From Pseudomonadota bacterium (lineage in GTDB: Bacteria; Myxococcota_A; UBA796; GCA-2862545), in NCBI GenBank assembly GCA_023954855.1, contig JAGSGY010000002.1:62001-126000 (forward strand): a stretch of 64,000 nucleotides of DNA. The letters are read 5' to 3'. Position 1 is the stretch's first letter; the number at the start of each line of letters is the position of its first letter. The position numbers were made by a program, and so were the translations under genes. Under the pieces are notes generated by a model. The model had not been told where the DNA came from and searched no databases. It saw nothing but the letters and a program-made list of their open reading frames with translations. This document shows positions 11,682-27,502 of this stretch, piece by piece.

Positions 11682-12257
11682 ATGTCGCTGCGCGATCAGC
11701 TGCTCGCCAAGGGTCTGGCCACGAAGAAGGACGCACGTCGCACCGCGAATCAGGCGCGCCTCGAGAAGAAGAAGCGAAAGGGCGACCAGAAGAAGCGCCG
11801 AGAGCAGGCCCGCGTCGAAGCCGAGCGCGCAGCTGCGCTGGAGGCTCAGCGTGTGGCGGATCGGCGTGAAGCGGAGTTGCGCACGCGTGAGGCACTGGAG
11901 ACACTCGAAGCCGCGCACCGGATCCACATGCTGGTCGAAGACAATCGCGTAGGCCGGCGCGGTCGGGTGCCGTTTCATCATCGCGGCCTGGACGGTCTCT
12001 CCGTGCCACGGCTCTGGGTGGACGAAGCCACGGCACGGCGTCTGATGGGCGGGCATCTGGCCATTGCCGGTTACGTCAAACACGACGGAACGGCGCGCTA
12101 TGCGACGGTCTCGGCTCAAGGTGCTGCGATGCTTGAGGAGCAGGCTCCCAAAGCCGTTCTCTTCTGGAACAAAGCGGCAGTGGACTCGAGTGACCCGACG
12201 CTGGCTGCGGGGATGGGTGTGTCCGAGCCAAGCCTCGACGCGCGGCGGCTCCGCTAG
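11682..12257 (+). CDS. DUF2058 (YaiL-like) protein
   Basis: A 191-residue protein that matches the DUF2058/YaiL pattern: an N-terminal MSLRDQLLAKGLATKKDAR segment, a highly charged Lys/Arg/Glu coiled-coil region (about residues 18-70), and a compact C-terminal domain with YVKHDGTARYATVSAQGAAML near residue 125. YaiL-type proteins are described as nucleic-acid-associated, but their role is not settled. The ATG at 11682 follows the previous stop by two bases. The end overlaps the convergent propeller gene: the palindrome CTAG at 12254-12257 supplies the TAG stop of both genes. Confidence 0.75.
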   Translation: MSLRDQLLAKGLATKKDARRTANQARLEKKKRKGDQKKRREQARVEAERAAALEAQRVADRREAELRTREALETLEAAHRIHMLVEDNRVGRRGRVPFHHRGLDGLSVPRLWVDEATARRLMGGHLAIAGYVKHDGTARYATVSAQGAAMLEEQAPKAVLFWNKAAVDSSDPTLAAGMGVSEPSLDARRLR

Positions 12258-13294
12258 TCGAGCGCGACCACGTAGAGCTTCTTGAACTCCCTACGAGCAT
12301 CGCCCTCGCGTCCTTGCGCGACGTAGGCCAGCTGCACGCGGCCGTCGCGAATGCCGAGGTCGAGGTCGCCGTGCCCGACGGTGGGAAGGTCGAGCATGCG
12401 CGCGGTCTCGGGAGCAGTCACCGGAGCCACGGCAATGGGGTCGAAGGCCTCGTCGATGTCTTGGACGAACACGAGCTCATCGGCGGGAGTCCAGCTGGGT
12501 CCGCTGCTGTCGGGTACCACCTTCTCTGCGATGCGGAAGGGCTTGGAACCGGGCTCGACCGCCATCAGGTCAAAACCAGAGTCCTCTCGCGACTGGTAGT
12601 AGGCAATCCAGCGCCCGGTGGGCGAGAACTGCGGCCGTGTCTGCGAGCCTCGTGCGTCGGTGACCTGAAGTGGTTCGTCGCCGAGTGCGGGGGACCAGAA
12701 CACGTGGTCGCCGGTCTCTCCGTGGGCCACCCACGCGAGGCCCATGCCTTGGGGGTGCCAGGTGGCGTACACTTCAGAGGTGACCGTTGTCTTGGAGAGA
12801 CGCCTTGCCGGGGCGGTGAGGTCCGCGACCGAGAGCAGGTAGAGGTCGCCTTCGCCGGATCGGGCCGAGGTGAACAGCAGGCTCGTCCCGTCGGGCGAGA
12901 AGCTCGCGCCGCCATCCGCGCCAGGTGCAGCTGAAATCGCGGTTCCACCCTCGAGGTACAGGTCGTAATCCCGCGTCGAGCCGGTGGATGCGAAGACGTA
13001 GCGGCTGCCGTCGGGGGCCCAGGCCAGCTCGTGGGTCGCAGCTGTCGGGGCCTGCGTCGCGAATCCTGCACTCAGACTCGTGGACGAGGCCGCGCGTGGG
13101 GTGACCGGAGTGAACTGCTTGGACACTGGGTCGCCGACCCACAGCTCCACCTGGCCGCGGTCTTGGAGGTTGGCCTCATAGGCGAGCCTCGTGCCTGAAG
13201 GGGACCAGCAAGGGCGCTGAACGTGGCCGCCATCGCGTTCAGCGACTTGAACGGGCTCGGCGGAGAGGGCGGTGAGGGCTAGCAGGACGAGAAT
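12254..13294 (-). CDS. TolB-like beta-propeller protein, exported
   Basis: A protein of about 346 residues with a hydrophobic signal peptide (VILVLLALTALSA) followed by WD40-like (PD40) propeller repeats of the TolB type. Repeat signatures include RPCWSPSGTRLAYEA, HELAWAPDGSRYVFAS, GASFSPDGTSLLFTSAR, TWHPQGMGLAWVA and RPQFSPTGRWIAYYQS. It is likely periplasmic and may bind a partner on the envelope. The start is unclear: no ATG, GTG or TTG lies just before the signal peptide in this frame. ATT at 13294-13292 is a possible rare start just after the stop of the upstream gene; longer versions would place an Arg-rich, non-signal tail inside that gene. It is the last gene of the long minus-strand run. 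Confidence 0.75.
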   Translation of the reverse strand: MLVLLALTALSAEPVQVAERDGGHVQRPCWSPSGTRLAYEANLQDRGQVELWVGDPVSKQFTPVTPRAASSTSLSAGFATQAPTAATHELAWAPDGSRYVFASTGSTRDYDLYLEGGTAISAAPGADGGASFSPDGTSLLFTSARSGEGDLYLLSVADLTAPARRLSKTTVTSEVYATWHPQGMGLAWVAHGETGDHVFWSPALGDEPLQVTDARGSQTRPQFSPTGRWIAYYQSREDSGFDLMAVEPGSKPFRIAEKVVPDSSGPSWTPADELVFVQDIDEAFDPIAVAPVTAPETARMLDLPTVGHGDLDLGIRDGRVQLAYVAQGREGDARREFKKLYVVALD

Positions 13295-13296
13295 GA

Positions 13297-14469
13297 CTAC
13301 AGCCCGTGGGAGAGGGTGAGCGAGATGGCCAGACCCGCTCCGATGGAGGAACGAGCGTCCGACGAAAGGGTGTATGCGACTTGGCTGCCTGTCACCAGCT
13401 TCGCGGTGCCTTGGGCGGGGAGCTGGCCGAGAGCGAGTTCTCCCGATGCCCGGACCCCTGGGGACCACCGGTTGTTCCGCATCGCGTCTCCAAACTCGAA
13501 GCCGAGCTCGACGAATGGGGAGTGTACCCAAGCGTTTGTGTACACCCAGAGGTCTGCGGAGTCGCTGTCGGCGCATTGCCAAGACGGTGAGTCGCAGGCG
13601 ATCTCGACGCCGGGCACCACCGACAGGCGGTAGCCGACGGCTGGCGTCCAGACCCCTGCGGTCGTCACCACGGGCATGCCGATTCGGAGCCCGGCCCCGA
13701 TGGCTCCGACGCCATAGACCGGCGCTACATCCCGCCGGGCGTGGGGCTGTGGTGCCCAGCGGATCGATGCCCCAAGGGCGATGGGTCCGGCCAATCGTCG
13801 AACGCCAACCTCCAGCTGGGGGCCTGCGGGACCGTGTGCGTCCGACAGGCCGAGCCAGCTCTGCACCCCAATGGCTCCGTCCATGCGGAACAGCTGGCTT
13901 GCGGTCCTTCCGGCGATGAGCTGGTCGGCGGCAAGCGTGACCGGGTGCACTTCGTGCGGCGCGATCCGCACGGTCTTGCCGTTGACGGTGTACTCGCCCA
14001 CGGGAAGCTCTAGGTCGACGGGCAGCCGTGTGGCGTTCGCTGCCGACTCGGTCACCAGACGCTCGAAGTAGGCGGCAACGGCGGGATCGACGAGTGCCTG
14101 CTCCCGGGAGAGCCGCAGGCTGCTCTGCAATCCTCCGGGATTCGAGTCGACGCGGAGGGTGCCGAAGTGATCTCGCAGAAACGAGGCCAGGGCGGCGGCG
14201 CTATGGAGTTGCTCTTCACTTCGGGCGTAGCTGTGCGCCTTCTCGGCGGCCGTCTCGGCTCCGGCCAGGTCTCCGAGCTCGAGGCGAACTTGGGCGAGCA
14301 GCCACCAGACCTCTGGATCGATGCGTCCGTCGTCGGTCTTGATCGCGCTCTCGAGCTCATCGAGAGCGTCCTCTGCCCAGCCGCGCTTCACGAAGAAGCG
14401 CGCTTGGTCGAGATGACTCCGAAAGTCAGGGGACTGCGCGAAGGCGGCGGCCAGGAACAGCGTAATCAT
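13297..14469 (-). CDS. TPR and outer-membrane-type protein
   Basis: A 390-residue exported protein. The N-terminus is a short signal (MITLFLAAAFAQ). Residues about 16-100 form TPR-like helices (ARFFVKRGWAEDALDELESA, AQVRLELGDLAGAETAAEKA). A small beta domain follows near residues 145-180 (LPVGEYTVNGKTVRIAPHEV), like the PEGA-type domains used to bind cell-envelope structures. The last 200 residues alternate hydrophobic strands (LEVGVRRLAGPIALGASIRW, VGYRLSVVPGVEIAC, GAGLAISLTLSHGL), consistent with an outer-membrane barrel. It overlaps the upstream ABC ATPase gene by 4 bases, so it is expected to be made together with the peptide importer and may be its outer-membrane companion; that is inference. 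Confidence 0.6.
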   Translation of the reverse strand: MITLFLAAAFAQSPDFRSHLDQARFFVKRGWAEDALDELESAIKTDDGRIDPEVWWLLAQVRLELGDLAGAETAAEKAHSYARSEEQLHSAAALASFLRDHFGTLRVDSNPGGLQSSLRLSREQALVDPAVAAYFERLVTESAANATRLPVDLELPVGEYTVNGKTVRIAPHEVHPVTLAADQLIAGRTASQLFRMDGAIGVQSWLGLSDAHGPAGPQLEVGVRRLAGPIALGASIRWAPQPHARRDVAPVYGVGAIGAGLRIGMPVVTTAGVWTPAVGYRLSVVPGVEIACDSPSWQCADSDSADLWVYTNAWVHSPFVELGFEFGDAMRNNRWSPGVRASGELALGQLPAQGTAKLVTGSQVAYTLSSDARSSIGAGLAISLTLSHGL

Positions 14470-15233
14470 GGGGCCTCCAGCCCGGCGTCGCGCACCAGCT
14501 TTCGGGTGGCTGCGTGGCGCTCAGGTGCCGTGAGCAGCTGGGCGTCACAGGATTCGACCACGGTGCCGCCATCCACGACCGCGACGCGGCTGCAGGCCCA
14601 GGCCACCAGCGGCAGGTCGTGAGAAACGAGGACGACCGCACAGTCGGGGCCGAGGCGATCGAGCAGTAGCTCCACGATCTCGGCCTTGAGCGAGGCGTCA
14701 AGGCCTGCGGTGGGCTCGTCGGCGACCACGAGGGACGGCTTTGCGAGCAACAGCCGGGCGATGCCAGCGCGACGCCGTTCTCCGCCGGAGAGTTGACCGG
14801 CGAGGGCGCCGCCACGTCCAGAGAGACCGACGGCGTCCAGCACCTCGTCGACGGCCTTGGAGCTCGACTCACCCGGGCGGTGCAAGCGCGCTGATTCATG
14901 CAGGAGTCGTGCGATGGGCATGGTCGGGTGCAGCATGGCCCGCGGGCTCTGGAACAAGATCTGGATGCGATGCCGGGCGGCAGTCCATTGACGGGGTGAC
15001 CAGTGCGTAGCCTCCTCGCCGAGGATGTGGACGGACCCTGAGTCCGGCTTGAGTAGCCCCATGCCGGCGCGGATCAGCGTCGTCTTTCCGGCTCCCGAGC
15101 TTCCTATCAGTCCAACCCGCTCACCAGGCGCCACATCGAGCGACGCCCCATTCAAGATGGGGTGCTCTTCTACGCGCCATGGCGGGCCGCTTCGGTAGCT
15201 CACGTGCAGGGCATCCAGCTTCCAGGCGCTCAT
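14466..15233 (-). CDS. Peptide-type ABC transporter ATPase (OppF/DppF-like)
   Basis: A 255-residue ABC ATPase that energises import through the two permeases upstream of it in the operon. The Walker A motif is GSSGAGKT (residues 44-51). The Q loop lies in the IQILFQSPRAMLHPTM segment, which is typical of the Opp/Dpp branch. The signature is QLSGGERRR and Walker B with the D loop is LVVADEPTAGLD; the switch histidine is in LVSHDLPLV. The length is shorter than typical DppF (about 320-330) because the C-terminal oligopeptide extension is missing. It overlaps the other ATPase gene by 4 bases upstream and the outer-membrane-type gene by 4 bases downstream. Confidence 0.88.
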   Translation of the reverse strand: MSAWKLDALHVSYRSGPPWRVEEHPILNGASLDVAPGERVGLIGSSGAGKTTLIRAGMGLLKPDSGSVHILGEEATHWSPRQWTAARHRIQILFQSPRAMLHPTMPIARLLHESARLHRPGESSSKAVDEVLDAVGLSGRGGALAGQLSGGERRRAGIARLLLAKPSLVVADEPTAGLDASLKAEIVELLLDRLGPDCAVVLVSHDLPLVAWACSRVAVVDGGTVVESCDAQLLTAPERHAATRKLVRDAGLEAP

Positions 15234-16024
15234 CCGAGCCGTCCTGCTGCGATGCGGCGTGTCGCCTCGATCAGGCGCCGTGCGGCTGAACTCTCGACCT
15301 CGCCTCCGGCGAGCTGATCCGGGGTGGTGGACTCGACAATCTGGCCCTCAGACATCACCAGTACGCGGTTGGCAATACCCGTGATGGCGCGCAAGTCGTG
15401 GGTGATCCACAAGACACCGACGCCTTCGTCCGCCACCCGACGCAGCTCATCGAGAAGGGGGCGTCGAATGGCCGGGTCCAGGCCAGTCGTCGGCTCGTCG
15501 GCAAGCAGGAAGTGACTGCCGCGCGCGAGGGCCTGGGCGATGGTGACGCGCTGTGCCATGCCTCCGGACAGCTCGTGGGGGTAGCGGTTTGCTACTGAGG
15601 GCTGAAGCCCCGCGAGGTTGAGCCAGTGGGTGGGGCCTTGGTCTCGTCCGGCGCGTCGGGCGGTCAGGGCCACCTGCCTTCCGACGGTGCGCAGGGGGTC
15701 GAGCGCACTCATCGCATCCTGTGGCAGGTACCCAATCACCGCGCCGCGCACCTTCGCGAAGGCCTTGCGTCGCGCGCGGGAGTCTCCGGTCATTTCCGGG
15801 CTGTGAATGGTGCCATCAATCATCACCTCAAGGGTTCCCCGGGTCACACCAGGCGCGATCTCGACCAAGCCGAGCATCGCTCGCGCGGTCAGGCTCTTTC
15901 CCGAGCCAGAAGGGCCGACCAACGCGCAGATCTCCCCGCGTGCGAGCTGCAGGTCTACGCCGGTCACCAGGGTCTGTGAGCCCGCTTCGATCTTTAGCGC
16001 GGAGAGCTGGAGGGAATCAGCCAT
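15230..16024 (-). CDS. Peptide-type ABC transporter ATPase (OppD/DppD-like)
   Basis: A 264-residue ABC ATPase, partner of the preceding subunit. Walker A is GPSGSGKS (residues 37-44), the Q loop lies in GYLPQDAMSALDPLRTVG, the signature is LSGGMAQR and Walker B is FLLADEPTTGLDP; the switch histidine is in WITHDLRAI. The ATG at 16024 is preferred over an in-frame TTG at 16039 because GGAGAGG lies six bases before it. The gene begins inside the end of the permease gene (8-base overlap). As with its partner, the C-terminal extension found in many DppD proteins is short. Confidence 0.9.
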   Translation of the reverse strand: MADSLQLSALKIEAGSQTLVTGVDLQLARGEICALVGPSGSGKSLTARAMLGLVEIAPGVTRGTLEVMIDGTIHSPEMTGDSRARRKAFAKVRGAVIGYLPQDAMSALDPLRTVGRQVALTARRAGRDQGPTHWLNLAGLQPSVANRYPHELSGGMAQRVTIAQALARGSHFLLADEPTTGLDPAIRRPLLDELRRVADEGVGVLWITHDLRAITGIANRVLVMSEGQIVESTTPDQLAGGEVESSAARRLIEATRRIAAGRLG

Positions 16025-16814
16025 GCTCGACCTCTCCAAGAGCCTCGGCCGCCCATCCGGTCGCGGCCAGGGTCAGCCACAGGGCGAGCCCCGGAGCCAG
16101 GAGGGCGGGGTCGAACACCGAGCGGCGACCCCACTCAAAGACGAGCATGTTTCCCCACGAGGGCGTCGGCTCCTGTACGCCGAAGCCACCGATGTAGGAG
16201 AGGGTGGTCTCGAGCACGAGGTAGAAGCCGAAGAGCGCGAGCAGGTGGCGCCCAATCAGACGTCCGCACGCCGCCCAGACGAGGTGAACCCAGAGGATGC
16301 GGGCACCGCTGAGGCCATGCGCTTGGCTGGCGAGAACGTACTCCTCCCCCCGGAGGCGCTCGATCCGCTCAAAGACAGCCTCGCCGAGCATCGGCACGTA
16401 GGACACGCCCGCCACGAGGGCCAGCGTGACCGACGAGTCCCCGTAGATGGACAGCACGAGGAGCACGAGCACGAAGCGGGGAATGGCGGCGAGCGAGGTG
16501 AATCCAAATCGGGTTGCCGAGCCGACGACTCCACCGCGGTAGGCCGTGACGGCCGCGAGCGGAACAGCGAGCACCAGGGCCACGGCACATGCGAGCAGGC
16601 CAGGGCCGGCAAAAGCGCCAGCCGCGAGCTGGAGTCTCGCGAACACATCTCGACCGAGGTGGTCTGTGCCGAGCCAGTGTGCGGGCGATGGGCCTTGTCC
16701 GGCGATGTCCGGAGAGACTTCGAGCGCGGCTTGCCAAGCACCGAGTGGTGACGTGAGGCCCACCGCGACGACAGCGACGAGAACAGCGATTCCAACGCGG
16801 GCGGTGTAGGTCAT
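16017..16814 (-). CDS. Peptide-type ABC transporter permease (DppC-like)
   Basis: A 265-residue inner-membrane permease with about five or six membrane helices. The family hallmark HWLGTDHLGRDVFARL is present near residue 48, and the EAA loop that contacts the ATPase lies at EYVLASQAHGLSGARILWVHLVW near residue 150. The C-terminal region (VLETTLSYIGGFGVQEPTPSWGNML) is also typical of DppC/OppC. Together with the DppB-like subunit it forms the transmembrane channel of the importer. The gene overlaps the DppB-like gene by 4 bases and the ATPase gene by 8. Confidence 0.9.
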   Translation of the reverse strand: MTYTARVGIAVLVAVVAVGLTSPLGAWQAALEVSPDIAGQGPSPAHWLGTDHLGRDVFARLQLAAGAFAGPGLLACAVALVLAVPLAAVTAYRGGVVGSATRFGFTSLAAIPRFVLVLLVLSIYGDSSVTLALVAGVSYVPMLGEAVFERIERLRGEEYVLASQAHGLSGARILWVHLVWAACGRLIGRHLLALFGFYLVLETTLSYIGGFGVQEPTPSWGNMLVFEWGRRSVFDPALLAPGLALWLTLAATGWAAEALGEVEHG

Positions 16815-17791
16815 CGCGACCCTCCGCGCAGCCGTGGATCAAGGCCGATCCGAACGGCGTCCGCGGCCAGGCGTGCGAGGCAGACGGTCGCCGCGGAGAA
16901 CAGGGTGATGCCGAGAGCTACGGGCACATCGCGGAGGAGGGCGGCCTGCCACAGGATCGCGCCCGCGCCGTTGATCAGCAGGACCTTCTCGAGAATGACG
17001 AGTCCGCCGAGCAGAAATCCCGTCCGCGCAGCCGCGAGACTGGCGACCGGAATCAGCAGGTGTCGTGCGATGAGCAGCGTCGTCGGCTCACCACGTGAGC
17101 GCGCGGCATCCACGAAGCCGGACCGCCGGATGGTGAGCAGAGCTTGCTCGACCTCCTGGTGAATCTCGGCGAGCGAGCCCGAGCCGACGGCGAGCAGCAC
17201 GATGGCCAGGGTCGAGCGTACGAGAGAGGCTTCGGCAGGCAGGGCGAACCAGGCCGGCCTGGCGATGTTTCCCGCCTCGATCAGCGAGAAGGTGAGCTCG
17301 TTGATGCCGTGTACGCCGATGTGTGCGAGGAGGAAGACCGGTGCCACCGAGAGCACGCGAACGAGACGACGCGACTGGCGGCGCTGCCCTCGAGTCCAGA
17401 CCGCGAGGGCAGTGCCCCACGCGAGGGAGAGAACGACGGCACCCGACAGCAGTCCTAGCGAGGTGAGGGCGGGCTGTAGCAGTACATCGATGACCGGCAT
17501 GCCTGGGCGATACGCTAGTGAAATCCCTAGGTTTCCGGTGGAGGCCTGGGCCAGGTAGCTGAGCACGCGCACGGCGATGGGTTGGTCGAGTCCCCATTCC
17601 ACCGACAGCTGTTCGCGCAGCTCCTCGCCGTTTGGGAGCAGGTCGATGGGGTCGCCGGGGGCCGCCCAGAGCAACAGCTGCACCGCCGTGGCCACGGCGA
17701 CCAAACTGAGCGCGAGCAATGCGGCGCGTCCAGCGAGGACGACTGCGATGCTGCGTAGTGCGGGCCCAGACCTTGCTATCGGAGCTCCCAC
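16811..17791 (-). CDS. Peptide-type ABC transporter permease (DppB-like)
   Basis: A permease of about 326 residues with roughly six membrane helices, the DppB/OppB partner of the DppC-like subunit. Family features are APGDPIDLLPNGEELREQL near residue 50, the EAA loop at FVDAARSRGEPTTLLIARHLL, LLINGAGAILWQAALLRD near the last helices and the C-terminal LDPRLRGG. The start is not certain: GTG at 17791 is used here, giving a 16-base overlap with the end of the substrate-binding-protein gene; another GTG lies 12 bases further upstream. Longer readings run through the binding-protein gene and are Arg-rich and unlike the family, so they are rejected. Confidence 0.88.
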   Translation of the reverse strand: MGAPIARSGPALRSIAVVLAGRAALLALSLVAVATAVQLLLWAAPGDPIDLLPNGEELREQLSVEWGLDQPIAVRVLSYLAQASTGNLGISLAYRPGMPVIDVLLQPALTSLGLLSGAVVLSLAWGTALAVWTRGQRRQSRRLVRVLSVAPVFLLAHIGVHGINELTFSLIEAGNIARPAWFALPAEASLVRSTLAIVLLAVGSGSLAEIHQEVEQALLTIRRSGFVDAARSRGEPTTLLIARHLLIPVASLAAARTGFLLGGLVILEKVLLINGAGAILWQAALLRDVPVALGITLFSAATVCLARLAADAVRIGLDPRLRGGSR

Positions 17792-19281
17792 TCCCTCGAC
17801 CACGTGAAGTAGTAGAAGGGGTGGATGACGACGTTGTCGACCCGCCGGGAAACGGCGGAGTAGCTGTCGAGCGTCCAGAGGAAAATCATCGGTGCGTCGG
17901 CGGCGATGGCCGCGTGTGCATCGCGAAGCAGTGATTTCTTTCGCTGTGGGTCCGACGTGTCCCGCGCCTCTTCGAGGAGCGTGTCGACATCGGCGTTCCG
18001 GTAGCTTCCGAAGTTCAGCTTTCCACCGGAGTGGAACTGCTCGGTGATGTCTTCGCTGCGGTCGAAGGACCACTGCGAGAGCACGGCGTCGAAGTCACGG
18101 TCGTTCCAGACCTTCGACTTCCACTCCGCGGCACCGACGAAGGTCGGCTCGACCTTTACGCCTTGGCTCTCGAGCTGGGACTGGAGCGCAATGACCACGT
18201 CCTGGGAGGTCTCGAGGCTCTCTTGGGCGGTCAGCCGCAACGTGAGGGGCTCTCCGCCCTTGGTCCAGTACTCGCCGCTTCGCGAGTATCCGGCGGCTTC
18301 GAGCAGCTGGCTCGACTTGCTCTCGTTCAGCGTGCGGCGCTCGACTTTGTGGTTGTAGTAGGGCGAGGAAGTCACGAATGGGCCCGTGACGACCTCTCCG
18401 GTGCCGATCGGCGCGAGCAGGGACTCGACGTCGACCATCGCCGTCAACGCCTCACGGACTCGCGCATCGTCAAAGGGCGGCCGTGCCTGTTGGAAGCCGA
18501 CGTACCACCACGAGTTGGTCTGGTAGGGGTAGAGCTCGATCTTGCGGTCGGCCTGAAGCGTCGCCAGGTCTCGCGGCATGACCCGTACGAGAGCCTCGAG
18601 GGACTCGTAGAGAAGCAGCTTTGACTGGTAGTTCTTGTCGGCCACTTCGCGCATCGTGATCGCGCCGAGGCGGGTGGCGTCGTGGTAGTTGTCGTACTGA
18701 AGCAGCGAGATGCTGTTGTCGTCGTTGAAGTGGTCGACGGTGTACGGACCGGTGCCGATGGGCTTCGTGCGGAAGGTGTCGGTGCGCTTGACCGCGGTTC
18801 CTGCGAACACGTGCTCCGGCAGAAGCTTAAAGTGCAGCTTGTCTTCGGGGGCGTATTCTTCGCGCTCGAAGGTGAACTGCACCGTGTGGTCGTCGATGGC
18901 AGTGACCTGCTTGATGAACGCCACGCGTCCTCGGTCGGTGGATGCGGTCTTTTCGTTCTTGAGGGCGCGTACGGTGAAGAGCACGTCCGCAGAGTCGAAA
19001 GTCTCGCCGTCGTGCCAGGTGACGCCCGGCTTGAGGTGGACGATGGCGCTCATTCGATCTTCAGCGAGCTCGAGCGAGGTGGCCAGGCGTCCGATGCTCG
19101 AGAGCTGGGCATCGTCGGTGTAGAGCCCCTCGAAGACGAGCTCGGCGAGGCGGGCTTCGCTCATCGTCGTGGTGAACAGCGGATTCACGATCGGCGGGGC
19201 CCGGTCTTCCGCGTAGCGCAGGGGAGCTGCGACCGCGGTTGCGGCGAGTAGCGAGGCAATGGTGAGTGCGCGCAGGGTCAT
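17776..19281 (-). CDS. Extracellular solute-binding protein, family 5
   Basis: A 501-residue periplasmic binding protein (SBP_bac_5 family, the DppA/OppA type) that captures a peptide-like or related ligand and delivers it to the permeases. The signal peptide covers residues 1-19 (MTLRALTIASLLAATAVAA). The typical early pattern PIVNPLFTTTMSEARLAELVFEGL follows, then HLKPGVTWHDGETFDSADVLFTVRAL near residue 85 and PIGTGPYTVDHF near 160. There is no lipobox, so it should be free in the periplasm. The ATG at 19281 matches the signal peptide; an upstream in-frame start would add a non-signal tail. It lies four bases after the lipoprotein gene. The ligand cannot be predicted from sequence. Confidence 0.9.
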   Translation of the reverse strand: MTLRALTIASLLAATAVAAPLRYAEDRAPPIVNPLFTTTMSEARLAELVFEGLYTDDAQLSSIGRLATSLELAEDRMSAIVHLKPGVTWHDGETFDSADVLFTVRALKNEKTASTDRGRVAFIKQVTAIDDHTVQFTFEREEYAPEDKLHFKLLPEHVFAGTAVKRTDTFRTKPIGTGPYTVDHFNDDNSISLLQYDNYHDATRLGAITMREVADKNYQSKLLLYESLEALVRVMPRDLATLQADRKIELYPYQTNSWWYVGFQQARPPFDDARVREALTAMVDVESLLAPIGTGEVVTGPFVTSSPYYNHKVERRTLNESKSSQLLEAAGYSRSGEYWTKGGEPLTLRLTAQESLETSQDVVIALQSQLESQGVKVEPTFVGAAEWKSKVWNDRDFDAVLSQWSFDRSEDITEQFHSGGKLNFGSYRNADVDTLLEEARDTSDPQRKKSLLRDAHAAIAADAPMIFLWTLDSYSAVSRRVDNVVIHPFYYFTWSREWELR

Positions 19282-19285
19282 GGCG

Positions 19286-20500
19286 TCAGTTTTCCTTGCT
19301 GTCGCCCGTCCGCGTGAGAGCGCGGAGGACCGAGAGATCGCCGAGGCGCTCTCGAAGGCCGAGGACTTCTGGGTGAGCCTCGGAGAGTGGATGAAGGGCG
19401 TCGAGGGCCTCACGGTCTCGACCGGACTCAAAGCGCGCAGCGGCGAGCAAGGCAAATAGCCTGGCAGAGTTGGCGGGGCCGACGTTTCGGTCGGCGACAT
19501 CGCGCGCGTGATCCAGAAATACGAGGGCTTCCGCGGGATGGCCGTCCTCGAGTGCGAGGGTTCCGCGGGCGAGTAGCCACTCTTGGCGAAACCGCCGGAT
19601 CAGGCCGAGGTCTCGCTCGAGCGTCATGCCGGCTTCCGGGGCCTCGGCGTCGAGCCGTTGTCGCCACGCATCGAGGGCGTCGTCGAGAGTACGCGCCTCA
19701 CCACGAGCTGCGCGGGTGTCTCCCGGCACCCGGTCGGGAAGGCCGAGTGCGCGTGTGGCGGGTGACTGCGCCGCGAAGGACCCCGGCGATGCGCCTCGTT
19801 CCATCGCCTTGCGCAGGTCGATGCGGTCGAGCCAAGCCGCAAAGAGCGTCGACTCGAGACCTCCGTCCGCCCAGGCACCGGCCTCGCTCCATTGGGTGGC
19901 GTCGAGGTCGCGGAGGGCTCTCGCATCCCAGATCTGGGCGAGCGTGGTGTGCAGGCAAGGGTCGAACCAAGCCACTGGAACGGGGCCCTCGCCCGTCTGC
20001 ACCGGCTCTTGGGCCCGAGCGAGAAGCTCGGTTGGGTCTCCGCTCTCACGGGCGGCCAGGTGTAGGGCTCTGCGCGGACCCAGGGCTTCGGTTCCTGCGC
20101 CAAGCTGCGCACAGTCTCTGGCGAGCTCGATGGGGATGCTCTGCGGCTCGTCCGGATTGCGCTCGCGACGCTCGCTCAGGTAGGCGAACTCTGCGCTTTC
20201 ATGGATCCGAGCCAGATTTTCGTGCAGGCGCGCCATCTCCCATGCCGCTCGGGCACGGGCTCTGCGCACGGTCGGATCCGGCCCTTCGAAAGCCGCCCAT
20301 GCGTCCTCGGCATCGTTGCGGTGGAGCGCGATCCACCCCTCGCGTGGCGTCTGCTCGAGAAGCTGCTCAAAGCGAGTGGGTTCCTCGATCATGGCCTGAA
20401 GCCAGGTGTCGGGAAGGGTGGGCCCGGCCGGTGGAGCTGGATCGCCGCAGCCGGTGAGCAACGCGCTCACCGCCACAGTGCAGTGCAGTGCGGCGCGCAC
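19286..20500 (-). CDS. Helical repeat lipoprotein
   Basis: A 404-residue lipoprotein with signal peptide and lipobox LLTGC (Cys18 as the lipidated residue). The remainder is helix-rich and Ala/Arg/Glu/Leu-rich. TPR-like helix pairs are suggested at about residues 60-110 (WIALHRNDAEDAWAAFEG, AWEMARLHENLARIH) and again near 330-390 (GTLALEDGHPAEALVFLDHA, ARFESGRDREALDALHPL). No enzyme motif is visible. It directly follows the carboxypeptidase-regulatory-domain gene with no gap and precedes the peptide-binding protein by four bases, so it probably serves as an envelope scaffold within that system. Confidence 0.65.
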   Translation of the reverse strand: MRAALHCTVAVSALLTGCGDPAPPAGPTLPDTWLQAMIEEPTRFEQLLEQTPREGWIALHRNDAEDAWAAFEGPDPTVRRARARAAWEMARLHENLARIHESAEFAYLSERRERNPDEPQSIPIELARDCAQLGAGTEALGPRRALHLAARESGDPTELLARAQEPVQTGEGPVPVAWFDPCLHTTLAQIWDARALRDLDATQWSEAGAWADGGLESTLFAAWLDRIDLRKAMERGASPGSFAAQSPATRALGLPDRVPGDTRAARGEARTLDDALDAWRQRLDAEAPEAGMTLERDLGLIRRFRQEWLLARGTLALEDGHPAEALVFLDHARDVADRNVGPANSARLFALLAAARFESGRDREALDALHPLSEAHPEVLGLRERLGDLSVLRALTRTGDSKEN

Positions 20501-20926
20501 CTACTGCCCTTCGTACGAGACGCCGGTCGAGTCCGCGCGGTCCTCGAACTGGTTGGGGTCGAGTGGGGTGCCGTCCTCGCGGAGCTCGATGCTCTCCTCG
20601 ACCATGGTGACGGTCTCGAGCAAGAGTGGACCCTTGCGGTAGTCAATCGTCAGGCTGGCCGTGTGAAAGCCCGGCTTGAACACCTCGAGGGTGTAGACGG
20701 TCTTCTTCGACATACGGGTCCGCTGACCATCGTCGCGGCGCAGGTAGTCGATGAGGAAGCGCCCCTCACGGTCGGTGACGAGTTCGACGTTGCCGGGGGC
20801 AAGGCTGACAATGGCGCGATCGATGGGCTGGCCGTTTCGGTCGAGCACTGAGCCTTCGATGTAGTGCCTGCCGGCCATCGCGGGTGTGGACGCCAGCAGG
20901 AGCGCAAGGGTCAAGAGGCCACGCAT
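20501..20926 (-). CDS. Exported carboxypeptidase-regulatory-like domain protein
   Basis: A 141-residue exported protein with a signal peptide (residues 1-19, ending AMAG). Nearly all of the mature part is one carboxypeptidase-regulatory-like beta domain: IEGSVLDRNGQPIDRAIVSL, then TDREGRFLIDYL and YTLEVFKPGFHTASLTI. Such domains are binding modules found on envelope proteins. The acidic tail (LREDGTPLDPNQFEDRADS) is unusual but too short to interpret. It follows the pseudokinase gene after two bases and abuts the lipoprotein gene, which suggests a shared role at the envelope. Confidence 0.7.
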   Translation of the reverse strand: MRGLLTLALLLASTPAMAGRHYIEGSVLDRNGQPIDRAIVSLAPGNVELVTDREGRFLIDYLRRDDGQRTRMSKKTVYTLEVFKPGFHTASLTIDYRKGPLLLETVTMVEESIELREDGTPLDPNQFEDRADSTGVSYEGQ

Positions 20927-20928
20927 GT

Positions 20929-23460
20929 CTACTCCAGTCTCGCGCGCGCATCGGTAAGCTTCGCGAGTTCTTCATCGGCATAGGCCACGAGGTCCTTTCG
21001 GGACTGGGTCTCGACGTGGCGGCGGTAGCGCCCCCATGCATCGATCGCGTCGAGCAGGTGGGACATCTCGTCGGGCTCTCCGTAGAACAGACCCTGATGG
21101 GCGCGGGCTTGCGCCTCGTAGATCATCGTCTTCTTGGAGAAGATCAGCTCGCTCGGCAGGCGTGCCCAGTAGCGCTCGGCACGAACTGACTCTTTGAGGG
21201 CGTGCGCGTAGTCCTTGGAACTCAGCGCCATGTCGGCGTCTTCGATCAAGTAGACCGGATTGTAGGTGTTCTCTGGGAGTGCGAGGATGGCCTCGAGCTG
21301 CGCCTTTCGCTCACTCTGGTCGTCTCGGACACGCGCATCGTCGTAGAGCAGGGTGCGTGCCCGGGTGTAGCCCGCATCCTCGAGCGGGACGCTGAGCAGT
21401 GCGCTCCGTTGTGGCGCTTCGAGTGCGCCTCGGCGGGCGAGCTGTGAGGCGGTCTCCCATGCGTCGTCCGTGTCCAGTGCAAAGTTGGCGACCTCGGCGA
21501 CCTCCGCAATCTCGGCGACGGCGTCGTCGTACACAGGCTCTGGCGCCGCGTACGGGTTGTCGGCGTACTCGGACGGGGTGGGCGACGGGCGCGGTGCAAT
21601 CGCCACGGGCACCGGATCCGGCGCAGGACGCACCACGGGAGCAGGCCTTGGCGCAGGTGCAGGTCGCGCCTCGGGACGCGGCGTAGGCCTTGCTGCGGGC
21701 TCCGGGGCCGGTCGTGCCACAGACGGGCTCGGGGTCGGCGCTGCCGCGGCCCTTGGGCTGGGCCTCGCCGCAGGTTTCGCCGCGGGCTTCGCCGCGGGCT
21801 TCGCCGCGGGCTCTGGGTCATCGTCCCGGCGAAGTGGCGGAGGCTCGTCAATGACGGGCTCGGGTGCCGCCTCGACGAGATCGGCGACGGAGGCTTGTGG
21901 GGTGGTCGAGTCGCCGACGCCAAACCAGAGTGCGGCCAGCCCACCACCACCGCAGAGGAGCACGACCACTGCCGCTGCTGCGAAAGCGCCGAGCACCGCT
22001 CCGGAGCCGGTCCCGGGGTCGGTCAGCTCCTGGTCTGCATCGAAATCGAGCGGCGCGATTCGAGGCCGCTGGGGAATCGGAGTCGGCTCGCGCTTCGGGA
22101 GGGGCGCGGGTGTCTTCTTGGCGGCAGGTGCGGGCGCCCTCTTGGCCACGGGCGGGGGCTTCTGTGCGGGCGCAGGCGCGGCATGGAGTTCTGCCTTCAG
22201 CTCAGGTTCGGGCATGTTGCCCTGGCTCTTCGGCTCCGCTGGGGGTCCTGGGGGGGGCGGCGGAACCACGGGGCGCTCTTCCCAGCTGGTCGACTCGACG
22301 GGCTCGCGCTCGACGCGTTCCCACTGCGTTCCGGTGGGCGAGGATTCCGGGTCGACCTCGAGCGTGTTTCCGCTCGAGCGGCGCTCCCAGTCGGTCTCGG
22401 CGGTGGAGTCACCCGTGGCGGGCAGGGGAGGAGCGCTGAGGAGGTCGCCGCGCACCTCGGTCTCTTCTTCATCGCCGTCTTGGCCAAAGCCCTCGTAGGG
22501 GATGTCGGCGGTGGAGAGCCTCGGAAGGGGTGCGTCTTCGGGCGCATCGTCCGAGAACAGCGGGGCGAGATCGCGCATGGCATCTTCTTCGATGTCGCCG
22601 AAATTGTAGCCGACCATCAACCCACGCAGGTCCTCACGGACCACGAATGCGCGCTGGTACCGATGGCGCGGGTTTAGCGACAGGGCGCGGTACAGCACCT
22701 TGTCGAGCCCGGGCAGGAGCTGCTTCACCCGCAGAAGGGCGGTGGTGACCTCGGCCCGACGGATCTGGTGAATCACCTGCAACTTGGAGTCGGCGGCGAA
22801 CAGACGCTCACCGACCAGGAGCTCGTAGAGCAGCGCGCCAAGAGAGAACACGTCACTTGCTGGCGAGAGCTCGGCGTCGGTCTCGGTCTGCTCGGGCGAG
22901 AGCCCGTAGATCTCGAAGTCCTCAGAGCCAGCTCCGAGTGCGGTTGGGTTCGCGATGAGGCCGTACCCGCCGAGGCGAACGCGGCCGCGCTCGTCGACCC
23001 GAATCGCCTCGGGGCGCAGGTGCAGGTGCAGGACGGCGGCGGCACCGCTGCTCTTTCCGGGGCGGCCGTGCAACGCTTCGAGTCCGTTGCAGATCTGCGC
23101 CGCGATGTGTAGGAACACGTTCGGGGAGAGACCGGCTCCACCTGCGGCGATGCGGTCTCGCACGCGGCCCAGGTCGACCTCGGTGCGGAAGTCTTCGACA
23201 ATAAAGCGCTCATCGCCCGCATCGACGACGTCGAGAACCGGTACGAGGGCCGGGTGCGACATGCCGTCCAGATCGCCGAGGCGAGCCGAGACCTCAGCGC
23301 CCTTGGCGGTGTCTCGAATCAGGCTCGACGGGATTCGCCTCGCCACAATCTGCTTGCCGGCGGGCTCGTCGAGGATTCCAGCGAACAGGTCGCCGGCGGT
23401 GTCGAGCCTGCGCATAAGGGTGAGGGGGCCTATTTTGCGCGGTAGTTGCATTGGCCGCAT
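20929..23460 (-). CDS. Membrane-anchored pseudokinase with Pro/Ala-rich periplasmic region
   Basis: An 843-residue protein with an N-terminal Hanks-kinase fold lacking its catalytic residues. The catalytic loop reads HLHLRPEA (residues 145-152), so the HRD Asp is replaced by His147; the DFG motif reads GYG (165-167); the ATP lysine position is Arg41; and the glycine loop is not conserved (LDTAGDLFAGILDE). C-lobe features remain (YGLSPEQTETDAELSPASDVFSLGALLYELLVGERLF), so the fold is intact. A Pro/Ala/Lys-rich linker (about 390-480) leads to one membrane helix (about 487-512), then a second Pro/Ala/Arg-rich region with KPAAKPAAK repeats and a helical C-terminal part. It sits between the TrmN6-like gene and envelope-protein genes. 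A signalling or scaffold role is likely. Confidence 0.8.
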   Translation of the reverse strand: MRPMQLPRKIGPLTLMRRLDTAGDLFAGILDEPAGKQIVARRIPSSLIRDTAKGAEVSARLGDLDGMSHPALVPVLDVVDAGDERFIVEDFRTEVDLGRVRDRIAAGGAGLSPNVFLHIAAQICNGLEALHGRPGKSSGAAAVLHLHLRPEAIRVDERGRVRLGGYGLIANPTALGAGSEDFEIYGLSPEQTETDAELSPASDVFSLGALLYELLVGERLFAADSKLQVIHQIRRAEVTTALLRVKQLLPGLDKVLYRALSLNPRHRYQRAFVVREDLRGLMVGYNFGDIEEDAMRDLAPLFSDDAPEDAPLPRLSTADIPYEGFGQDGDEEETEVRGDLLSAPPLPATGDSTAETDWERRSSGNTLEVDPESSPTGTQWERVEREPVESTSWEERPVVPPPPPGPPAEPKSQGNMPEPELKAELHAAPAPAQKPPPVAKRAPAPAAKKTPAPLPKREPTPIPQRPRIAPLDFDADQELTDPGTGSGAVLGAFAAAAVVVLLCGGGGLAALWFGVGDSTTPQASVADLVEAAPEPVIDEPPPLRRDDDPEPAAKPAAKPAAKPAARPSPRAAAAPTPSPSVARPAPEPAARPTPRPEARPAPAPRPAPVVRPAPDPVPVAIAPRPSPTPSEYADNPYAAPEPVYDDAVAEIAEVAEVANFALDTDDAWETASQLARRGALEAPQRSALLSVPLEDAGYTRARTLLYDDARVRDDQSERKAQLEAILALPENTYNPVYLIEDADMALSSKDYAHALKESVRAERYWARLPSELIFSKKTMIYEAQARAHQGLFYGEPDEMSHLLDAIDAWGRYRRHVETQSRKDLVAYADEELAKLTDARARLE

Positions 23461-23504: not shown

Positions 23505-24155
23505 TCACGCGCTCGCGAGGCGGTACAGCCGCTCCACGTAGTCACCACGGTCCGGATGGGTCGTCGTTTCGCAGGTCTTTGGCACTGGCGATAGCTCCAC
23601 GATGCTGCGCTGCGAGCCAATCCTGTGGATGCGCCACGGGTGAAGAGGACTGCCGAGCTCCGCTTCCCGTGCCCGCGGAACCACAAACACGGCCCGACCC
23701 GTGGGCTTGAGCAATCGTGACGCCGCTTCGACGAAGTCACCAAGGGTCGCGGTGGACTCAGTGCGCGCCGCGGCCTTCCAAGGGTTCGGTGAGACCGGGC
23801 CGCTGTGGCCCATGAAGTAGGGCGGGTTGCAGACCACGAGGTCGACCGGCGGTGCGTGAAGGTCGAGCACGTCCCCCACACGAAAGTCCACCGTGCTCTC
23901 ACTCTCGGCCAGGGACCGGCGCCAAGCCTCCGCCCATCGCGCATTCGCGTCTACACCCACGACATCCATGCCTGTACGCGCCAGAAGAAAGGCCACGATG
24001 CCCGAGCCCGTGCCGAGGTCGATCGCGGTCTTCGCCGTCGGACCGTCTAGCGCCACCCCCGCGAGCCAGAAGGCATCTGCGGCGTAGCGAAAGCCCTGCT
24101 TCGGCTGGGTGATCACCAGGCCGGAGGCAGGGGTGTCACGCGTCCACTCAGTCAA
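23505..24155 (-). CDS. TrmN6-like tRNA/RNA N6-adenine methyltransferase
   Basis: A 216-residue Rossmann-fold methyltransferase. SAM-binding motif I is AIDLGTGSGIVAFLLA near residue 45, and the NPPY catalytic motif (VVCNPPYF) near residue 115 marks it as an N6-adenine or N4-cytosine amino methyltransferase. The N-terminal QPKQGFRYAADAFWLA segment and the length (E. coli YfiC is about 245) match the YfiC/TrmN6 branch, which modifies A37 of tRNA1-Val. Substrate identity is inferred from family resemblance only; TrmN6, PrmC and RsmC share the motif. The gene overlaps the end of purD by 8 bases and so belongs to the purine cluster. Confidence 0.7.
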   Translation of the reverse strand: MTEWTRDTPASGLVITQPKQGFRYAADAFWLAGVALDGPTAKTAIDLGTGSGIVAFLLARTGMDVVGVDANARWAEAWRRSLAESESTVDFRVGDVLDLHAPPVDLVVCNPPYFMGHSGPVSPNPWKAAARTESTATLGDFVEAASRLLKPTGRAVFVVPRAREAELGSPLHPWRIHRIGSQRSIVELSPVPKTCETTTHPDRGDYVERLYRLASA

Positions 24156-25407
24156 TGGCCTGGGCCGCGATATCCGTGCGCACTTGAGCGCCTTCGAAAC
24201 GCCAGCCGTCTACGGCCGCGTAGGCCTGAGCGCGGGCATCACGGATGCTCCTTCCTCGGGCGGTGACGCCAAGGACCCGCCCCCCGTTGGTGCGCAACTG
24301 GCCTGCCGAGTCGCGCGTCGTTCCGGCATGGAAGACGGTGACTTGCTCATGAGTATCGGCTTCGGGAATCGCGACGCCCTTCGTGCTGGTCTCGGGGTAG
24401 CCCGCAGAAGCGAGCACAACGCAGCAGGCGTGCTCGTCGGCAAAGGAGGGGCGTCCGTCGGGCAACTCGCCAGACGCGGCGCCGTACAGCCAGGGCAAGA
24501 TGTCTTCGTCCCACAACATCATCAGCGGCTGGCACTCTGGGTCGCCGAAGCGCACGTTGAACTCGAGGACGCGAGGCCCATCGGGAGTCATCATCAGACC
24601 CGCAAACAGCACGCCGCGAAACGGAGTGCCGCGCCGAGCCATCTCGGCGACGACCGGCCGGTGTACGGCATCCAGGACTGCCTCGACCTCGTCGCGGTCC
24701 AGTAGGGGGCACGGCACATAAGCGCCCATGCCGCCCGTGTTCGGGCCCTGGTCCCCATCAAAGATGCGCTTGTGGTCTTGTGCAGAAGGCAGGCTCACGA
24801 CCCGCTCGCCGTCCGACAGGCCGAACACGCTGACTTCGGGTCCGGTCATCAGGTCTTCGAGGACGAGGAACCGGGCGGCGTCACCGAAGCGACCCGACCA
24901 TGCTTCGTCCAAGGCGGAGAGGGCTTCTTCGCCGGTCACACAGACGAACACGCCCTTTCCAGCGGCGAGGCCGTCGACTTTCACGGCGACGTTGCCGCGG
25001 GCGCAGCGCTCTTTGGCGGCCACGACCGAGGCAGGGTCCGTCTGGTCGACGCGAATGAAGGCTGCCGTCGGCACGGACGCGGCGTCCATGATCTCTTTGG
25101 CAAAGGCCTTGGACGTCTCGAGCAGCGCAGAGGCAGCGATGGGGCCGAAGCACGGGATGCCCGCTGCGATCAACGCGTCTGCCAGGCCATCTGCGAGGGG
25201 CGCCTCGGGACCGACGACGACGAGATCTGCCTCGACCTGCTTGGCCTGTGCGACGAGAGCGGTGGCATCGCCGTTTCTCAGTCGCTCAGCTGCGGGAAAC
25301 CCTGGGTTGTCGTGGGTCGTGAACAGCGTGGTGAGCGTCGGGCTCTGTGCCATGCGCCAGGCGAGCGCGTGCTCGCGCCCACCGCCACCGACGAGAATGA
25401 CCTTCAT
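24148..25407 (-). CDS. purD: Phosphoribosylamine--glycine ligase
   Basis: A 419-residue ATP-grasp enzyme that joins glycine to phosphoribosylamine to make glycinamide ribonucleotide, the second step of purine synthesis. The start [17 protein letters not shown] carries the family N-terminal GGGREH motif. Further features are [17 protein letters not shown] near residue 64, [15 protein letters not shown] near 145 for nucleotide binding, [20 protein letters not shown] near 215 and [14 protein letters not shown] near 285. The length fits the family (about 420-430). It lies seven bases after purH, and its 3' end overlaps the methyltransferase gene. I used the ATG at 25407; an upstream in-frame start lies inside purH and would add a non-family tail. 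Confidence 0.97.
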
Positions 25408-25414
25408 CTGGACC

Positions 25415-26962
25415 TCAGTGCCTGAAGTGGCGGCGACCGGTGAGCACCATCGTGATGCCAGCAGCCTCGGCGGCAGCGGCAACTTCTTCGTCGCGGATCG
25501 ACCCGCCAGGCTGGATGACCGCGGTCACGCCGGCGTCGATCGCGGCCTGAATACCGTCCGCGAAGGGGAAGAAGGCGTCCGACGCGAGCACCGACCCCGG
25601 CACGGGCAGAGTGGCCTTGCGAATGGCCAGATGCACGCTGTCCACGCGGCTCATCTGCCCTGCTCCGACGCCGTTCAGGCGGCAGCCGTCGTCCAGGGCC
25701 TTGGCGAGCACGATGGCGTTCGACTTCACCGCCCGACAGGCGTGCCAAGCGAAGCGAAGCGCCCTGGCTTCGTCCTCGGTGGGCTGGCGCTTGGTGGCGA
25801 CGTTCCACTCGAAGTCGCAGTTTACGTCCCAGTCCTGGAGAAGCCAGCCGCCTTGCACCCGGCGCGCGTCCATGCCCGGCGGGACCGAGTCGATCCAGTC
25901 GCTCGGCAGGTCGAGCACGCGGAGCTTCTTGCGCGTCGAGAGACGTTCGCGGGAGACCTCGTCGAAGCCGGGAGCTGCGAGCACCTCGAAGAAGGTCTTC
26001 GACATCTTGATCGCCCGGACGGTCTCGGGCGTCACGGGCCGGTTGAACACCACGATTCCGCCGTAGGCGCTTACGGGGTCGCCAGCCAGCGCGCGTTCGA
26101 AGGCGGTCGGAAGGTCCGGAGCGCTCGCCATTCCAGCCGGGTTCATGTGCTTGATGATCGCGCAGGCCGGCTCTTTGTACTCGAACACCGCGCGGAGGGC
26201 ACCGTCGAGGTCCGCGAGGTTGTTGAAGGACATCTCCTTGCCCTGCAGCTGCACGGCGCGGGCAAGGCTGCGGCCACGTGGCTCTGGGTCGGCGTAGAAC
26301 GCGGCCTGCTGGTGCGGATTCTCGCCGTAGCGGAGGTCCTGCATCTTCTTCAGTCCCAGGCTGCCCTCGGGAAGCAGCGCCGGCATCTCGGCGTTTCGCG
26401 CAAGCCAGTCGCTGATGACGGCGTCGTAGCGGGCCGTGTGGCGGAAGGCCTTCACGGCGAGCTCGGTGCGCAAGGCCTGGGTGGTGCCGCCGGCGGCGAT
26501 GGCCTCGGCCACGCGCCCGTAGTCTGCGGGGTCGCTAACAATGGTGACGTACTTGTGGTTCTTGGCCGAGGCGCGGACCATGGTCGGCCCGCCGATGTCG
26601 ATGTTCTCGACTGCGTCGGCAAGTTCGGCACCGCCTTCGATGGTCTTCTCGAAGGGGTAGAGGTTGCAGGCGACGACATCGATCCACTCGATGTTCTCGC
26701 TGTCCGCCTCGGCGGCGTGCACGTCGCGGTCACCGAGGATGCCTCCGTGAATTCGCGGGTGCAGGGTCTTCACCCGTCCGTTGAAGATCTCGGGGGCGCC
26801 GGTGTGCGCGCTGACCTTGGTGACGGGAAGTCCAGCCTCGGAGAGGACCTTGGAGGTGCCTCCGGTGGAGAGCAGAGTGTAGCCGGCATCGACGAGGGCC
26901 TTGCCGAAGTCGGCGAGTCCAGTCTTGTCCGAGGTGGAGAGCAGGGCGTAGCGGGTGGTCAC
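25415..26962 (-). CDS. purH: Bifunctional AICAR formyltransferase/IMP cyclohydrolase
   Basis: A 515-residue enzyme for the last two steps of IMP synthesis. The N-terminal IMP cyclohydrolase domain (about residues 1-190) starts [18 protein letters not shown] and contains [12 protein letters not shown] and [16 protein letters not shown]. The C-terminal AICAR formyltransferase domain (about 200-515) includes [22 protein letters not shown], the SNAIVLAK segment and [11 protein letters not shown], and ends [10 protein letters not shown] as in the family. The start is GTG and overlaps the stop of the upstream lipoprotein gene (GTGA). Confidence 0.98.
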
Positions 26963-27438
26963 GGGGCCTCCGAGGGTGCGTCCTCCTCGTCCGGTGCGGC
27001 GAGGACGCGGAAATATGCGACCGTCACCCTCCGCGCATCCTGCACCCAGCCTTCCAGCAGCACGATGTCACCGATGTAGGCCTCTAGATCCCGCGCTGCG
27101 CGCGCATCGACGTAATAAAAGACGCCACTGTTACGATCTTGAATCCCTAGTTCGGCACCGTAGGCGATGAGCGGGCCGACCCACGTGGGAAGCCCGTGTA
27201 GGCCGTCGTGAACGCGCCAATCCTTCACGTGAATGGTCCGGAAGATCCGAAAACCCTCCACCTCTGTGGTGTGCCCATCAAGGTACCCAAGTGGCTTTGC
27301 CTGCGCCGGGAGCTTGAGCGGGTAGCCTCGCCCATCGAGCGTGCGCAGCTCAGCGAACTCTCCGGTGCCGTACACGAAGCCGGTATGGCGGACAGCGCAG
27401 CCGCTCAGTAGCAGTAGGGGAAGAAGCAGTCGGTACAT
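26959..27438 (-). CDS. Lipoprotein, unknown function
   Basis: A 159-residue lipoprotein with signal peptide and lipobox LLSGC (Cys14). The mature part is mostly beta strand: GTGEFAELRTLDGRGYPLKL, then a segment with WVGPLIAYGAELGIQDR and a final VLLEGWVQDARRVTVAYFRV. The last part resembles the OB-like core of short binding proteins (YIGDIVLLEGWV), but I do not recognise a family. The ATG at 27438 fits the signal peptide, while an upstream in-frame start would add a non-signal extension. It is the first gene of the minus-strand run and overlaps purH by GTGA; it diverges from the gene at 27503. Confidence 0.65.
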   Translation of the reverse strand: MYRLLLPLLLLSGCAVRHTGFVYGTGEFAELRTLDGRGYPLKLPAQAKPLGYLDGHTTEVEGFRIFRTIHVKDWRVHDGLHGLPTWVGPLIAYGAELGIQDRNSGVFYYVDARAARDLEAYIGDIVLLEGWVQDARRVTVAYFRVLAAPDEEDAPSEAP

Positions 27439-27502
27439 GCGCACAGCTATCTCGCACGCGAAGCCAATGGGAAAGGCGTTGCAATCCGGGATAGGGGGGC
27501 GC

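Follow-up and report, generated by a model that had tools for sequence, protein, structure and literature searches.

What role could a protein kinase have in a peptide-import operon once its active site has been lost? The question is raised by a gene in the window, the 64,000-nt stretch of contig JAGSGY010000002.1 analyzed here (Table 1), whose product was originally predicted to be a catalytically dead, membrane-anchored scaffold or peptidoglycan-spanning signal protein. Its conservation with peptide-import genes suggests a membrane-spanning scaffold or switch, not an enzyme.

The 843-aa protein passed the gathering cut-off of Pfam Pkinase (PF00069; 55.9 bits, cut-off 31.7) over residues 62-268, and only Pkinase and PK_Tyr_Ser-Thr were matched at E up to 1. 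Its best solved relatives were PknB chains of M. tuberculosis (E 3e-16, residues 45-279 aligned). The Hanks (Pkinase) fold was further indicated by Glu190, Asp203 and Arg267, which were present in 49 of 49 orthologs. AlphaFold gave a poor model for the kinase part (pLDDT 35, built from two sequences), so the pseudokinase fold and its candidate docking face rest on sequence. PADLOC matches were put down to generic kinase similarity and not to defence, and a promoter and terminator scan gave nothing above shuffles.

When the codons were read, the catalytic Lys at position 41 was found to be Arg, the αC Glu to be Arg60, the HRD Asp to be His147, the catalytic Asn to be Ala152 and the DFG Asp to be Gly165. 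In an alignment with 14 kinases having K/E/D/N/D, a comparison that the original prediction had called for, all five replaced residues fell at catalytic columns. That prediction had recognized the fold and named the replacements at 41, 147 and 165, all of which were confirmed; the αC Glu and catalytic Asn losses and a helical C-domain (residues 664-843) are additional to it. The protein thus had none of the residues of an active Hanks kinase (β3 Lys, αC Glu, HRD Asp, Asn, DFG Asp). According to the accessible part of PMC12599244, loss of one or more of β3 Lys, HRD Asp and DFG Asp marks a pseudokinase, and all three were gone.

The losses were shared by the whole family. A search with residues 1-310 in 71 genomes of the class (E ≤ 1e-40) gave a single ortholog in each of 49 genomes; all 49 belong to the window's order, for which 63 genomes were searched, and orthologs were present in 27 of the 38 nearest relatives. 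One ortholog (L031) was from the named genome Myxococcota MAG.533; L079 lies on the same contig, and the two were given one count. None of the five catalytic residues was found in 47 of the 49 aligned orthologs, and one in the other 2 (Lys in L051, DFG Asp in L053). Position 41 was most frequently Arg (43), followed by His (4), Lys (1) and Glu (1); the single Glu is unreliable because N-lobe bases of that sequence (L058, kept in the residue tallies and left out of the tree) are masked. Position 60 was Arg in 49 of 49, position 147 was Gly, Ala, Ser or His in 49 of 49 and never Asp, position 152 was never Asn, and position 165 was Asp once. The HRD His, APE Glu, αF Asp and αI Arg, which are structural, were present in all 49. 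The DFG Phe position was Tyr, Phe or Leu, and the regulatory spine was kept. The Ala of VAIK, which touches adenine in active kinases, was replaced by Val, Leu or Ile in 45 of 49. The block RYQRAFVLREDLRGLM at the end of the domain, a lineage-specific part of the C-lobe, was near-invariant and different from the active kinases (28 of 49 orthologs). Median identity to the window was 53% for the pseudokinase domain, on a level with the transporter subunits OppB, OppC, OppD and OppF (48-53%). The C-domain (46%) and the TPR lipoprotein (36%) were lower, and PurD and PurH higher (62-66%); each median was taken over 7 to 12 loci.

Judged by its residues, the domain is dead yet constrained, and the loss of catalytic residues is fixed in the family across the order. 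The losses and the layout described below are beyond chance on the aligned sequences because they are common to the whole family. We infer that the domain is incapable of phosphate transfer, and it is probably unable to bind Mg-ATP. The claim of catalytic death is strongly supported by the orthologs, and the losses proved, as had to be asked of them, to be common to the orthologs. Orthologs with canonical residues were sought and none was found within the order; the operon kinases of sister orders do carry these residues, and therefore date the loss and do not refute it.

Residues 487-505 were hydrophobic (mean Kyte-Doolittle 2.25), with a linker of 20% Pro on one side and a second Pro-rich arm on the other. 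The same layout (pseudokinase, Pro/Ala linker, TM segment, second arm, C-domain) was observed in all 16 full-length proteins, the window's and 15 others, in which linkers were 176-453 aa long, the second arm was mostly Pro-rich and the 180-aa C-domain was conserved. Two of the 16 had a second overlapping or nearby stretch above the hydropathy threshold. The two Pro/Ala-rich arms around a membrane helix, predicted for one protein, are thus shared. Arg and Lys were more frequent in the 20 residues preceding the TM segment than in those following it (24 vs 9; 16 proteins), which fits a topology with the kinase inside and the C-domain outside. In other lineages the C-domain belongs to proteins that have an N-terminal TM segment or a lipoprotein-like signal, which would likewise place it outside and supports the membrane anchoring originally proposed. 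The C-domain of the window protein matched no Pfam family, others gave scattered weak TPR matches, and an AlphaFold model of the C-domain alone was all-helical at low confidence (pLDDT 56).

Table 1 Features of the pseudokinase gene and its neighbors (window coordinates)
Feature	Position	Strand	Basis or remark
Pseudokinase-TM-C-domain gene	20929..23460	-	ORF with ATG start, 843 aa; Pfam match; 49 orthologs
Pseudokinase domain, residues 11-284	22609..23430	-	Pfam, solved relatives, ortholog alignment
Arg41 codon	23338-23340	-	
Arg60 codon	23281-23283	-	
His147 codon	23020-23022	-	
Ala152 codon	23005-23007	-	
Gly165 codon	22966-22968	-	
Pro/Ala-rich linker, putatively cytosolic, residues ~305-486	22003..22548	-	
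T-x-W motifs of linker (n = 3)	22387-22395, 22321-22329, 22282-22290	-	
TM segment core, residues 487-505	21946..22002	-	Hydropathy
Pro/Ala-rich arm, putatively periplasmic, residues 506-663	21472..21945	-	Predicted topology
Helical (TPR-like) C-domain, conserved, residues 664-843	20932..21471	-	Alignment, Pfam scan, low-confidence all-helical model
CarboxypepD_reg-like protein	20501..20926	-	Operon partner; apparent signal peptide
TPR lipoprotein	19286..20500	-	Operon partner
OppA-type solute-binding protein (SBP_bac_5)	17776..19431	-	True start probably inside stretch
OppB-type permease	16811..17746	-	Start approximate
OppC-type permease	16017..16814	-	
OppD-type ATPase	15230..16039	-	
OppF-type ATPase	14466..15233	-	
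TPR protein	13297..14469	-	Conserved operon end
PD40 beta-propeller protein	12254..13582	-	Conserved operon end; start approximate
purD	24148-25482		Usually divergent in other genomes
purH	25415..26962	-	Usually divergent in other genomes
Small lipoprotein beside purH	26959-27504		Without Pfam family; usually divergent in other genomes

The pseudokinase heads a conserved operon and is followed on the same strand by the CarboxypepD-like protein, the TPR lipoprotein, OppA-B-C-D-F, the TPR protein and the PD40 protein. With one SBP_bac_5 protein, two BPD_transp_1 permeases and two ABC ATPases in one run, the transporter has the composition of an Opp/Dpp importer. Of the 13 order loci for which 3 kb or more of downstream sequence was available, 12 had the succession of pseudokinase, CarboxypepD, TPR lipoprotein and Opp genes, and OppA was found in all of these 12; some loci break off ahead of OppF or PD40. 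The exception was L072 (genus g20), in which the pseudokinase lies on a different contig from CarboxypepD and OppC. Despite this broken linkage, pseudokinase and transporter were both kept in 5 of 5 genomes of the genus. No CarboxypepD was seen at L062, which has only 1.5 kb downstream.

Upstream lie purD, purH and the small lipoprotein, which were divergent in most genomes of the order and co-directional in the window's genus; purH was not found beside L070, L072, L074 and L078. The gene run had been described as one for purines and peptide uptake, and of these two parts it is the one for peptide uptake that proved to be conserved on the same strand. A role in the purine pathway was demoted, since purH and purD are mostly on the opposite strand and were not found beside some orthologs. 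The small lipoprotein was a frequent divergent neighbor of the pseudokinase, with 30% identity to the L031 copy. Elsewhere in the window, positions 33907-36537 encode a TonB-dependent receptor with an N-terminal TPR part.

The operon genes were also lost together. The pseudokinase, CarboxypepD and OppC of the operon type were absent together from seven genomes that span four genera of the order (G002, G004, G007, G016, G025, G029 and G034); G007 had only an OppC paralog (31%). Six of the seven were listed without a C-domain match, and G034 was absent from that listing. When presence of the pseudokinase or C-domain was compared with that of CarboxypepD in 63 genomes, 46 had both, 6 the first only, 1 the second only and 10 neither (Fisher test, P = 6e-7, ignoring kinship). 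Several mismatches fell in fragmented assemblies, and some of the six genomes without a CarboxypepD match are perhaps explained by contig breaks. A scaffold role tied to the Opp-type peptide importer operon is plausible on this gene content.

When 282 genomes of the phylum were searched with the C-domain profile, 55 gave a match; 39 of these belong to the order, 8 to the remaining orders of the class (8 of 8 genomes) and 8 to lineages outside the class. The C-domain protein preceded TPR, Opp and PD40 genes in most of 20 fetched stretches, with OppA in 15 of 20. Outside the order, the kinase was either a separate gene (L121 and the f23 loci) or a kinase-C-domain fusion beside a second kinase (L122-L124), and the five catalytic residues were complete in 12 operon or neighboring kinases of C-domain loci. 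The C-domain also occurred without a fused kinase in f7, f23 and the second Opp operons of f9, and because of the latter the kinase part is not needed in every such operon. In these f9 operons (L126, L127, L130 and L140), which carry no kinase, the C-domain follows an N-terminal acidic stretch and a TM segment.

In a tree of 63 rows, the dead family formed one clade (100/100, stem 1.75) that joined the operon kinases of the class at 94/89, a value below the starred level from a bootstrap that had not settled. The f23 operon kinases fell in another clade and were rejected as orthologs. The dead kinase is specific to the order and probably descended from an active operon kinase, because sister orders pair the same C-domain and Opp operon with complete kinases. 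The likely course, as read from the alignments and the tree, is that an active operon kinase was fused with the C-domain and that catalysis was lost before the order diversified. A C-domain-fused kinase of a sister order (L125:7179-9896) kept Lys and the Asp at the DFG position and lost the HRD Asp. This degenerate kinase, observed in one genome, adjoins a catalytically complete kinase, and no Opp gene was matched in the fetched stretch.

Pkinase was matched at 145 places in the window's own genome, of which the 30 top-scoring loci and 40 lower-scoring stretches were taken for a census. The test (HxDxKxxN, no stops, >230 aa) was passed by 21 of the 30, and replaced catalytic residues were observed in seven other kinases of the 40 lower-scoring stretches (L165, L172, L178, L180, L182, L183 and L185). 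A dead kinase is thus not rare in itself in this genome; the notable part is family-wide conservation with one transporter. L185 (C60:15152-16814), with HGG and LGYG, scored 44.9 with the dead-family profile vs 39.8 with the active-kinase profile and is a possible distant paralog. Two further kinases of the window had all five catalytic residues. Positions 55322-57949 of the window encode a fusion of an FGE-sulfatase domain with a Hanks kinase whose catalytic residues are complete.

These data bear on what the dead domain may do. We consider the chances evenly balanced that it forms the cytosolic part of a bitopic protein and that this protein scaffolds or gates the Opp-type peptide ABC importer of the same operon; the tie to the Opp operon is shown by the sequences, and the partner and the mechanism are deduced from them. 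The domain would be held in one fixed conformation, which is likely because the regulatory spine is kept and the VAIK Ala is replaced by Val, Leu or Ile. The block at the domain end may be a docking face for a subunit of the importer or for a partner kinase, and the Pro-rich arm and C-domain may reach the periplasmic TPR lipoprotein, the CarboxypepD-like protein and OppA. Its probable ancestor is an active kinase of this operon, of a type that persists in sister orders. An order-wide history in which an active operon kinase and a periplasmic TPR-like partner were fused, the active site was lost and the product became a dedicated regulatory or structural importer subunit is possible, but we lean against it as a complete account.

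Eukaryotic pseudokinases pair with active kinases, and the dead domain could likewise be an adaptor or allosteric activator that brings an active Hanks kinase to the membrane complex. Candidates abound among the 145 Pkinase places, and the f9 operons, which pair two related kinases (kin1 and a kinase-C-domain protein), are a possible model of such a pair. We consider this unlikely, however, since no active kinase is a conserved neighbor in the order. The kinase at 9567-11036 (+) was rejected as a fixed partner, adjoining the operon only in the window's own genome and G013; it adjoined the operon in none of the eight other order genomes with the operon end fetched, two of which had only weak, more distant kinase matches. 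That an active kinase instead phosphorylates the T-x-W motifs of the linker, which a reader such as an FHA domain then binds, is quite unlikely. Thr was found two residues before 31 of 70 Trp in 28 linkers vs 4.9 expected (binomial P = 7e-18, with no correction for common descent or for repeats duplicated inside a protein), compared with 3 of 160 Trp in the C-terminal parts of 30 kinases from the window's genome, and recruitment of FhaA by the tail of the MviN pseudokinase is a precedent (PMC12599244, accessible part). At least one motif was present in 16 of the 28 linkers, three in the window's, but 12 had none, L031 among them, and none of the scanned operon proteins gave an FHA match.

It is very unlikely that the domain is a metal-independent nucleotide sensor, in which a positive pocket formed by Arg41 and Arg60 would bind ATP or a different nucleotide without catalysis and let the importer respond to purine status. 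Arg or His at position 41 (47 of 49), the invariant Arg60, the Arg-rich pockets proposed for ATP binding in DLHK pseudokinases (PMC12599244, accessible part) and the frequent divergent purH and purD would agree with a sensor. The bulky replacement of the VAIK Ala in 45 of 49 should, however, crowd the adenine site, purH went unmatched beside the four orthologs named above, and no purine gene was matched in sister-order loci. Most improbable of all is an evolutionary relic, a decayed kinase tolerated for the sake of a needed C-domain. The C-domain does occur in f7, in f23 and in the second operons of f9 with no kinase fused to it, but the dead domain is single-copy, has near-invariant non-catalytic blocks and is conserved above the C-domain.

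The functions of bacterial pseudokinases are largely unexplored, according to the accessible part of PMC12599244. This family has rare assets: strongly conserved operon partners, joint gene loss in several genera and sister lineages whose operon kinases are catalytically complete. Because of these, the roles of a dead kinase and an active relative can be tested on one transport system. If the scaffold reading is true, the change from kinase to scaffold would be readable in living lineages, because sister orders preserve the active-kinase stage.

The bacterial pseudokinase families named in the accessible part of PMC12599244 included none from Myxococcota, and among the literature matches listed, in a coverage that subscription journals are largely outside, no pseudokinase in an Opp operon was found. 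GLW, ActPs1/2, DYD, DLHK and CP1 resemble the window family in family-wide or frequent catalytic residue loss, some with a C-terminal TM segment, but in the same source their features are different. GLW has GLW for HRD and LLLL/W at β3, whereas the window family has mostly HL[GAS] and V[VA]R. Replacement of the β3 Lys by Arg is shared with ActPs2 (43 of 49). The other ActPs2 features (HRD Asp to Asn, DFG deletion, an activation-loop insert of ~250 aa) are not; instead, the window family has Gly, Ala, Ser or His at 147, a GYG-like triplet in place and a short loop. The β3 Arg and absent αC Glu of DYD are found here as well (Arg41 in 43 of 49, Arg60 in 49 of 49), but the motif replacing DFG is mostly GYG or SYG. 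DLHK keeps the HRD Asp and lacks a TM segment, in contrast to 0 of 49 and 16 of 16, respectively, in the window family. CP1 is fused to COG3899 without a TM segment, whereas the window protein has a TM segment and no other Pfam domain.

Closer likenesses were found among membrane-bound systems. EssB/YukC (PMC12599244, accessible part) is also a membrane protein with one cytosolic pseudokinase domain in which all three motifs are degraded, and is a scaffold of a transport machine. It differs in being part of the type VIIb secretion system of Firmicutes, whereas the window protein carries a Pro-rich arm and a helical C-domain and is encoded in an importer operon; no YukC match was found (Pfam, E up to 1), and the neighbors are Opp genes. 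The MviN pseudokinase (ActPs3) is similarly a dead domain on a membrane protein, with bulky residues in the nucleotide site and non-catalytic recruitment, but it belongs to MviN, a peptidoglycan-synthesis protein of actinobacteria, and its catalytic motif letters differ from those of the window family (Table 1 of PMC12599244, accessible part). In PknF-Rv1747 of M. tuberculosis, a Hanks kinase is encoded together with an ABC transporter and modulates its function (PMC3908365, accessible part); that kinase is active and its transporter a predicted exporter, in contrast to the dead kinase and the importer of the window. By analogy, the window system would work most like EssB/YukC and MviN, and the logic of its operon recalls PknF-Rv1747.
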